A DNA stretch of 64,000 nucleotides from assembly GCF_000425585.1 (NCBI RefSeq), contig NZ_KE384399.1, forward strand, positions 124,001 to 188,000, in the 5' to 3' direction. The DNA comes from Terrimonas ferruginea DSM 30193 (GTDB taxonomy: Bacteria; Bacteroidota; Bacteroidia; Chitinophagales; Chitinophagaceae). A model generated the notes under the pieces. It worked only from the letters and a program-made list of their open reading frames with translations, ran no database searches and was not told the DNA's origin. The translations under genes were made by a program, and so were the position numbers. Shown piece by piece: positions 16,781-18,486 of the stretch (within the stretch, counting starts at the first letter, position 1; every line of letters starts with the position of its first letter).

Positions 16781-18486
16781 ATGAAAACCGATACCACCCT
16801 GATCGAGAAACCTTTTTTCCAGCCGCTCATAACGGCAAACCAAAACCGAATAGAAGACATCGCTCCGGCTGAAATTCTGCAATCAGCCAGTTTTAAAAAC
16901 CTTACAGAAACCCAGGCCGCTGATAGCCAGGGTGATTAAAGAATTTACCTGCCCACCAAAGAGCAGGCTGATAACAATCTTTCGCTGGAAACCCAGCGTA
17001 AAGCCTGTGAGCAGTATTCACGGAAAAACAATTACAGCATACTTGGGCATTTTGGCGGCACTTATGAAAGTGCCAAAACAGATGAACGCCGTCATTTTAA
17101 TGCCATGCTCTCATTTGTAAAAAAGAGCCGGGATAAAATATCCCATATCATTGTTTACAGTGTGGACAGGTTCAGCCGTTCCGGTGCCAATGCCATTTAT
17201 ATTGCGGAGCAGTTGAAGGAAGTTGGGATTACAGTTTTTGCAGTTTCGCAGCCAACTGACACTACTACGGCAAGCGGTAGCCTTCAGCAAAACATACAGT
17301 TCATTTTCTCTGAATACGATAACCAGCTTCGCCGTGAAAAATGTATGGCAGGGGTAAAGGAAAAGCTGCTCAGCGTATCTGGGTGAGTGTGCCGCCCATC
17401 GGCTACTCTATTGTAAGAACCGCTGGTAGAAAAAGCTTTGAACTCAATAGTAAGGGCAAACTGATCCAGAAGGCCTTTTACTGGAAAGCCGAGGGACTAT
17501 CTATTGAGGCCATAAAGGACAGGCTTGCCCAAAAGGGCCTTAAAATGGACAGCCGCCGGGTAAGTGATTGTTTGAAAAACCCGTTTTATTGTGGCCTGCT
17601 AGTGCATAATGCACTGGAGGGAAAAGTGGTAGAGTGCATACAGGAGAAAGCGGTATCCAAAGAACTTTTTTTTACAGGTAAATGGTATTCTTGCTTCCCG
17701 GCAGCAGGGCTATGGAATAAAGCCCGAAAATGACGACAGCCCTTTGAAACGCTTTATTAAATGCGATGAATGCGGGGCGTTTCTGAGGGCTTATAAGGCC
17801 TGGAAAAACCAGCAGTATTACTACAAGTGCAACACCAGGGGCTGTTCGTGCAACCGCAGGGCGGATGAGGTACATAAGAAGTTCTTTGTTTTACTGGGAC
17901 AGCAGCAATTAAATGTTAATGAAGATGTGGCAAAGCTTATTAGTGCTCAGATGATCGCCACCTATAACCAGCTTACCAAAGAAAAACAGCGCGATAGTGA
18001 GCGCCTGAATAAACAACTTCAGGAGTGCGAGAAGAAGATCGAGCGGCTGGAAGAGCGCTATATCAATGAGGAAATTGACAGGGATTTATCGGGCGTTATA
18101 AGCAAAAGTTTGTAGCTGAAAGAAGGGAACTGGAACAAAATCTCCTGAACGCAGATAGCAGGCTGTCGAACTTTGAAAATATCATCGAAAAAGCATTACA
18201 TTTTGGCTCCAATCTCAAGCCACTATGGGCTTCCGGAGGATATGTTCAAAAACAAAAGCTGCAAAAGCTGGTGTTCCCGGAGGGGATTGTCTATAACCGC
18301 AAAAATGATGAGTGTCGAACCCTGAGGGTAAACAGTGTTTTTCTCTGTATGAGTGAACTGGCAAGGACTTTAGCACAAAAGAAAAGCGGGGATACATCTT
18401 ATAAAGATAATATCCCCGCTTTAGTGGAGAATAGCGGGGTCGAACCGCTGACCTCTTGCATGCCATGCAAGCGCTCTACCAACTGA
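16781..18486 (+). pseudogene. Decayed large serine recombinase (site-specific integrase)
   Basis: The pieces in order are: an N-terminal peptide from ATG 16781 that meets a TAA at 16937; 'PTKEQADNNLSLETQRKACE' in the same frame; 'IIVYSVDRFSRSGANA', the resolvase-fold signature, running to a stop at 17386; a shift to the frame of 'PPIGYSIVRTAGRKSFE'; a shift near 17680 to the zinc ribbon 'KCDECGAFLRAYKAW...YYKCNTRGCSC'; then a coiled-coil region; and a shift near 18095 to the last frame, ending at 18486. The catalytic Y-x-R-V-S segment expected before 'TKEQ' is missing. With one in-frame stop, three frameshifts and no catalytic serine, the enzyme is dead. The last frame reads across the antisense of tRNA-Ala, the usual mark of an integrase that targeted that gene. 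Confidence 0.85.
18383..18422 (-). terminator. Intrinsic terminator of tRNA-Ala
   Basis: Arms AAAGCGGGGATA (18383-18394) and TATCCCCGCTTT (18411-18422) form a perfect 12-bp stem. On the minus strand it is followed by a T-rich run (TTTTCTTTTG), and it begins 3 bp beyond the tRNA 3' end. The same bases lie inside the last open frame of the recombinase remnant on the other strand. Confidence 0.75.

Follow-up and report, generated by a model that had tools for sequence, protein, structure and literature searches.

Integration into tRNA genes is usually credited to tyrosine integrases, and islands of this kind (Islander type; NBU1 and NBU2 in Bacteroides) occupy the 3' end of a tRNA gene with the integrase adjoining it. 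In SCCmec-type cassettes with Ccr, a large serine recombinase (LSR) likewise acts at the 3' end of a conserved gene, but the target is a single protein-coding gene. The serine integrases A118/LI, Bxb1, phiC31 and TP901-1 contain Resolvase and Recombinase domains, a zinc ribbon and a coiled coil. In the available table rows of an IME review (PMC5704250), all tRNA sites are listed with tyrosine integrases. According to the available part of the TIGER/Islander work, tRNA or tmRNA genes harbor 33.8% of islands; a split by integrase type is not given there. Related LSRs that insert at several sites have been described as multi-targeting (PMC10083194); according to the accessible portions of that paper, most of the multi-targeting clade has DUF4368, and one ortholog has a TT core and T/A-rich ends, while tRNA is not mentioned in its main text as available. 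A description of serine integrases using many tRNA 3' ends was not encountered in the open-licence literature; this negative result is limited, and thus the novelty of the family described below is tentative.

The analyzed stretch of DNA, below called the window, comprises 64,000 nt of Terrimonas ferruginea DSM 30193 (GCF_000425585.1, NZ_KE384399.1:124,001-188,000; genome G000). It quite probably contains the decayed integrase end of an island from a Bacteroidota LSR family, whose intact members insert precisely at the 3' end of tRNA or tmRNA genes. The family resembles serine integrases in the four domains named above, in a predicted structure of one relative that aligns with integrase-att complexes, and in a 5-bp offset between the putative attP and attB motifs, as in the accessible part of the publication on LI (PMC3783163). 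It differs from them in that many tRNA 3' ends are targeted, a terminator-like hairpin lies within the reading frame, and the recombinase is preceded by a conserved small gene for which a database family was not found. Unlike the tyrosine-integrase islands, it has an unrelated enzyme, a serine recombinase; a long direct repeat was not found, and the tRNA seems not to be rebuilt from the element. DUF4368 is absent from the Pfam matches of 12 members, and thus by this domain they do not fall into the multi-targeting DUF4368 clade. Below, recombinase loci are denoted by L and examined genomes by G with a number.

The decayed LSR spans positions 16949-18483 of the plus strand and consists of four pieces which, in the alignment with intact relatives, lie in alternating frames. 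The catalytic-domain remnant (residues ~30-171, positions 16949-17373) has lost the start and the YTRVS motif; it was identified by tblastn with L084, L013 and L087 and by the Pfam Resolvase domain. It is followed by the PF07508 domain in another frame (residues 174-272, 17380-17673) and, after a further frame change, by the zinc ribbon with the beginning of the coiled coil (residues 271-410, 17669-18088), both assigned by Pfam and by alignment to relatives. The last piece (residues 412-544, 18085-18483) covers the remaining coiled coil and the C-terminal tail. This final frame crosses the terminator-like hairpin, enters the antisense strand of tRNA-Ala(GGC) and ends within it at the stop codon 18484-18486. 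The tRNA gene (18425-18497, minus strand) was found both by ARAGORN (18424-18497) and by Rfam (18425-18497, 65.7 bits). In the open pieces Pfam recognizes the domains Resolvase PF00239 (2e-13), Recombinase PF07508 (4e-8) and Zn_ribbon_recom PF13408 (4e-6). The segment Y-x-R-V-S (residues 30-34 of relatives), in which Y, R, V and S are invariant in all 18 aligned intact relatives, is absent from the window copy.

Hence several observations of the preliminary description are reproduced, namely the retained resolvase and zinc-ribbon sequence, the three frame changes, the loss of Y-x-R-V-S, and the last frame running through the antisense tRNA-Ala(GGC) to position 18486. The neighboring frames of 2025, 1073 and 1400 amino acids are open, which argues against general sequencing error as the source of the frameshifts. 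Without Y-x-R-V-S the window recombinase is, judging from its sequence, a dead relic. Moreover, it is the sole PF07508 match in this genome at E 1e-6, so no intact homologue is seen that could mobilize the element. The earlier view that the recombinase is dead and the element fixed agrees with these data, and the relic appears immobile as far as this genome shows.

The preliminary description also took a piece with an in-frame stop for the N-terminus of the recombinase. In this point it needs correction: the piece (16781-16936, plus strand) is rather a remnant of a conserved small gene that has lost its 3' half. When 1,395 six-frame segments of the window were compared with a profile built from 68 such genes, this piece gave the best match (E 8.5e-6), the next best value being 0.0024; the profile match covers 16754-16936, and the tblastn matches of L087 and L084 cover 16796-16921 and 16853-16924, respectively. 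Of 91 loci, 72 have an upstream ORF; four ORFs that looked unrelated were dropped from the profile. The small-protein match stops at about residue 44 and the recombinase homology in the window starts at about residue 30, which suggests that a deletion fused the two remnants. When an alignment of 25 small genes was compared with 147 related genomes, it gave 20 matches in 11 genomes, all of which lie, by coordinates, ~0.3-0.6 kb before a matched LSR catalytic stretch on the same strand. The small protein has no convincing relative in Pfam, PHROG or PDB, and its structure model is of middling confidence (mean pLDDT 73.5). Its position allows one to guess that it is a candidate accessory or directionality factor.

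The end of the recombinase frame within a tRNA gene is not peculiar to the window. The first relatives examined, open-frame recombinases at most 92% identical to the window catalytic domain (79 aa), also end in tRNAs, and one of the intact relatives, L013, sits at tRNA-Ala(GGC). When phages and plasmids were compared with L013, all relatives obtained were below 60% identity, and one scan of viral contigs yielded none. Eighty named loci were chosen by similarity, being the top-ranking ones of 552 that a 12-sequence alignment retrieved. Three of them are at a contig edge; of the remaining 77, according to ARAGORN, 66 abut an antisense tRNA or tmRNA, four have one further on, and seven have none. 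Since this set was picked by similarity, PF07508 was also searched across the 147 genomes, yielding 98 places in 45 genomes, one of which is the window. Seven of the other 97 are at contig edges. A tRNA was assigned to the ORF end if its 3' end lay from 130 before to 60 after the stop. By this definition 51 of 90 places have an antisense tRNA or tmRNA at the ORF end, five more read through one (56/90), and 34 do neither. The target kinds in this set number 13 (Ala, Arg, Asn, Cys, Glu, Leu, Lys, Met, Phe, Pro, Ser, Val and tmRNA), and Gln occurs among the targets of the named loci.

In the tree of the 98 PF07508 rows, two groups of 33 and 44 rows contain 56 of the 57 tRNA-ended rows, including the window, which groups with L250 (tRNA-Phe). 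One tRNA-ended row, 19 rows without a tRNA and one at an edge remain outside. Ends without a tRNA occur in 12 of the 42 scored rows of one group and in three of the 29 of the other (15/71), and several of these look truncated. The Resolvase and Recombinase domains are both present in all 12 relatives tested with Pfam, as in the window pieces, and the zinc ribbon PF13408 is recognized in six of the 12 and in the window. The predicted model of one relative has long helices, resembles serine integrase-att complexes, and has a disordered tail (residues 510-544). Intact relatives of the main family enter the tRNA in a single frame with the pattern V-x-x-x-G-x-E-P, in which Glu531 is invariant in 18 aligned sequences. 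On this comparison the tRNA-encoded C-terminus is a family trait rather than decay. In this point the preliminary description needs changing, as intact members of the family normally end inside a tRNA as well. A second LSR subfamily, ~22-25% identical to the main one, has the same tRNA 3' junction and its own hairpin (genomes G335, G458, G151, G163; loci L222, L225, L188, L190).

The junction was analyzed in loci aligned on the T-loop: 67 loci (66 named ones and the window) and 55 of 56 loci from the PF07508 set, which overlap by at least one locus, as L084 and L250 are on the same contig. The candidate host/element junction of the window is between G (18424) and T (18425), the latter being the antisense discriminator base. 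The junction is G|T in all 67 loci; in the PF07508 set it is G|T in 40, G|C in 14 and G|A in one of 55. Thus the two-base core varies among members (GT, GC, GA), and its second letter follows the tRNA. Insertion-free sites in G001 and G150 likewise have G before the discriminator, so that this G is common to host and element and does not mark the element alone. To the right of the junction the acceptor arm varies with the tRNA; positions +15 to +19, in contrast, hold a TCGAA that hardly varies among 49 non-redundant loci.

The extent of host DNA can be seen from relatives without the element. In the genus of G004, 13 of 15 genome matches that reach the tRNA end start within 2 nt of the junction (query position 10-11); the other two, in G154 and G162, begin 4-6 nt before the tRNA end. 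For the Pedobacter locus L162, five of the listed matches reach the tRNA; they come from a single family, represented by three genera, and all begin 1-2 nt ahead of the discriminator position. Some of these relatives hold other insertions, so not all of them represent empty sites. As the homology starts at the tRNA terminus, it is indicated that the whole tRNA remains host DNA and that insertion occurs at its 3' end. This supports tRNA-Ala as the insertion site in the window and a C-terminus encoded by the target, both proposed earlier.

A hairpin with a T-run on the tRNA strand is present within 85 nt of the element end in 63 of the 67 loci and in 54 of the 55 from the PF07508 set, compared with two of 34 ends of non-tRNA recombinases and nine of 268 inner stretches. 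On the recombinase strand such hairpins are rare (3/67 and 4/55). In 65 of 67 loci they are much more stable than shuffled sequence. In the window the hairpin (18383-18422, minus strand) has two 12-nt arms, 18383-18394 and 18411-18422, and a fold z of -7.2; it lies downstream of tRNA-Ala and inside the recombinase frame. Since the insertion displaces the native sequence downstream of the tRNA, the natural reading of this hairpin is a putative replacement terminator for the tRNA.

The conserved block suggests how the sites may be recognized. In LI integrase the zinc ribbon occupies half-site positions 11-19 of attB and 16-24 of attP, as modelled and tested in the accessible part of that study (PMC3783163). 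If the T of G|T is position 1, the conserved T-arm block corresponds to positions 12-22. In the window it is TCGAACC (18440-18446, plus strand), the antisense T-loop/T-stem, which is (nearly) invariant with the same spacing in the 49 non-redundant loci and is proposed as the zinc-ribbon half of attB. As the T-arm is at the attB place of the zinc ribbon and TCGAA occurs 5 bp further out in candidate distal ends, recognized so far in few genomes, the LSRs most likely use the T-arm as a common attB half-site.

Candidate distal ends come from recombinases without a tRNA at their end. Four of these, L155, L151, L270 and L274, have TCGAAC at +19 or +20 (+19 in L155). Among 14 tRNA-less ends inspected, the motif is seen only in L270 and L274; L240 and L290 have a hairpin end without the motif, and the other ten have no clear hairpin end. 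Three of the four loci have a second recombinase on the same strand that ends in a tRNA: 18.3 kb away at tRNA-Pro in G065, ~53 kb at tRNA-Arg in G004, and 91.6 kb at tRNA-Leu in G548. For L151, no second LSR is found in the 26.6 kb up to the contig end. The simplest reading of the paired recombinases is tandem insertion, in which case the right flank of the first recombinase would be the left end of the next element with its attP motif. In particular, the 91.6-kb element that ends at L153 may have its left end in the right flank of L155. An alternative, that this flank repeats the element end at L153, was dropped; the flank was not found elsewhere in that genome.

A scan of 849,677 upstream bases looked for G plus 4 nt or more of the local acceptor end and then TCGAA. 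It gave seven matches at distance 20, and no other distance between 6 and 45 had more than three; when 5 nt or more of the acceptor end were required, five matches were left at distance 20 and at most one at any of the others. This histogram is not independent, as the spacing was noticed first in four loci, two of which (L270 and L274) are among the seven matches, and the other five matches were known beforehand. All seven distance-20 matches come from seven longer stretches of G004 and G065, two of them near copies, and none from 67 shorter flanks. Two other routes to the distal end were abandoned. Gene order at tRNA-Ala of G004, tRNA-Pro of G065 and tRNA-Met of Pedobacter yielded no clean distal end, as the relatives carry other genes or insertions there. 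In the pairs of copies shown, the left breaks of homology fall close to the small gene or upstream of it, apparently as a mark of cargo turnover. Contig 1 of G004 contains at ~4534.6-4548.7 kb (L198+L197+L040) four half-sites resembling left ends, each preceded, by eye, by an inverted repeat; a single recombinase was found in 60 kb, and these may be stacked integrase-less units.

On the cargo side the window relic is preceded by two open genes on the minus strand, both assigned by Pfam/PADLOC as defence-like: a 2025-aa STAND-type NTPase (6937-13014, GC 30-35%) and a 1073-aa protein with PLD and SNF2 helicase domains (13107-16328, GC 34-39%). These are plausible cargo. The preliminary description went further and held that the element had brought this low-GC STAND/SNF2 region; this may be so, but the left, distal boundary was not recognized within the window. 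On its cargo side there is no direct repeat of the tRNA end of 12 nt or longer, the best other match to the tRNA end in the window has eight mismatches in 31, and the relaxed distal motif is matched 40 times with 39.3 expected. The site is absent from all other genomes examined, and a search of relatives for an empty tRNA-Ala site gave nothing to compare. In 19 relatives the clpP/clpX neighborhood (clpX matched in 18) has no tRNA, and tRNA-Ala of G001, from the same genus, has other neighbors; thus neither could serve as an empty site. The proximity of tRNA-Ala to clpX in the window (18425-20241), observed in none of the 19 relatives, looks like a local rearrangement.

Elsewhere in the window, an Rhs-repeat protein with an AHH nuclease-like C-terminus (1031-5233) is followed by a possible Imm11-like immunity gene (5028-5783, weak match). 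In other genomes, tRNA-like copies lie beside the real tRNA-Ala or tRNA-Pro (L089 11549-11893, L095 11570-11927, L105 11560-11672; also L192, L199, L200). In several of them, by eye, a short inverted repeat replaces the anticodon arm; this is possibly another tRNA-associated mobile unit. Some adjoin a gene that presumably encodes a GIY-YIG nuclease.

The window alone could be explained without any role of the tRNA, if a dead gene had lost its stop codon and run into a chance neighbor. Indeed, the recombinase of the window is a dead copy with changes of frame; however, intact relatives end in tRNAs too, those of the main family in one frame, and the proportion of 56 of 90 comes from the unbiased set, so this explanation is hardly credible. 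A more serious one is that crossover takes place inside the tRNA and the gene is then restored by a tRNA 3' half brought by the element, in the manner of tyrosine integrases. This is common among tRNA islands in general, according to the available part of PMC12884075, and candidate distal ends share 4-6 nt with the local tRNA acceptor end. On the other hand, near-identical elements are found at different tRNAs, the acceptor arm in each case being the tRNA's own, the tRNA end is not repeated in the window, and homology with relatives begins at the tRNA terminus. We consider such restoration improbable, and insertion beside an intact host tRNA is retained as the preferred reading.

If the T-arm is shared, one lineage should be able to change targets, and the tree of 81 recombinases requires at least 31 target changes among 67 labelled rows (the minimum possible is 13). 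With shuffled labels the mean is 37.0, and none of 200 shuffles was as low as 31; the target is thus inherited only loosely, with frequent changes. The window row of this tree contained one misframed stretch, so that its place there is unreliable. The same clustering, together with the Met lineages in Sphingobacteriaceae and Ser lineages in G004, speaks for each recombinase being specific to one tRNA, with lineages frequently re-specializing and no common reading of the T-arm. However, almost identical recombinases switch targets: L150 at tRNA-Arg and L152 at tRNA-Glu are 91.9% identical, L109 at tRNA-Phe and L113 at tRNA-Arg 95.5%, and L113 and L117 at tRNA-Met 96.1%, the elements in both of these sets diverging from about the junction onwards; L114 belongs to the same switching set, and L025 and L032 differ within one genome. 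Further, L100 and L102 are at intergenic non-tRNA palindromes; by eye, the GAACC in them has the same distance as in the tRNAs, which suggests occasional off-target use. Separate specificities are therefore rather unlikely, and a shared T-arm half-site is preferred. A separate arrival of the recombinase relic and the STAND/SNF2 region is less easily dismissed. The recombinase has GC 43-45% versus 30-39% in the possible cargo, the left boundary was not found, and the homology shared by related copies is often lost close to the small gene or ahead of it, so that cargo turnover is common. Against this, the STAND and SNF2 genes adjoin the recombinase where its cargo would lie, and intact relatives often have restriction-modification genes nearby. 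The cargo differs between loci: type I restriction subunits are present at tRNA-Ala of G004, and, as assigned by a tested member of each cargo cluster, HsdR-like proteins occur in 11 of the 80 loci, a methylase/specificity protein in eight and a conjugation coupling protein in nine. Independent arrival is a real possibility, if somewhat short of an even one.

The proposed mechanism of the intact members is as follows. Crossover would take place at or beside the discriminator base (G|N73), leaving the tRNA whole as host DNA with the element hairpin facing it; the recombinase frame spans the hairpin into the antisense tRNA, with the small gene preceding the recombinase. The attB half-site recognized by the zinc ribbon would be TCGAACC of the antisense T-arm, which is universally conserved, and the other element end would bear the same motif 5 bp further out, at the attP spacing. 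One lineage could then move among different tRNAs. The island in the window, with the catalytic start deleted and three frame changes, could not move itself. We see an even chance for the wider scheme in which the T-arm is a generic landing signal, the hairpin a replacement terminator and the small protein a directionality factor, with tandem stacking of elements and some units perhaps lacking an integrase.

The family accounts for annotated recombinase proteins with a C-terminus encoded by an antisense tRNA. If the proposal is true, these LSRs would be natural multi-target integrases with predictable att geometry, and the small upstream protein would be a candidate for their directionality factor. 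Some of the defence-gene and conjugative islands found in Bacteroidota would then be explained by multi-tRNA serine integrases.
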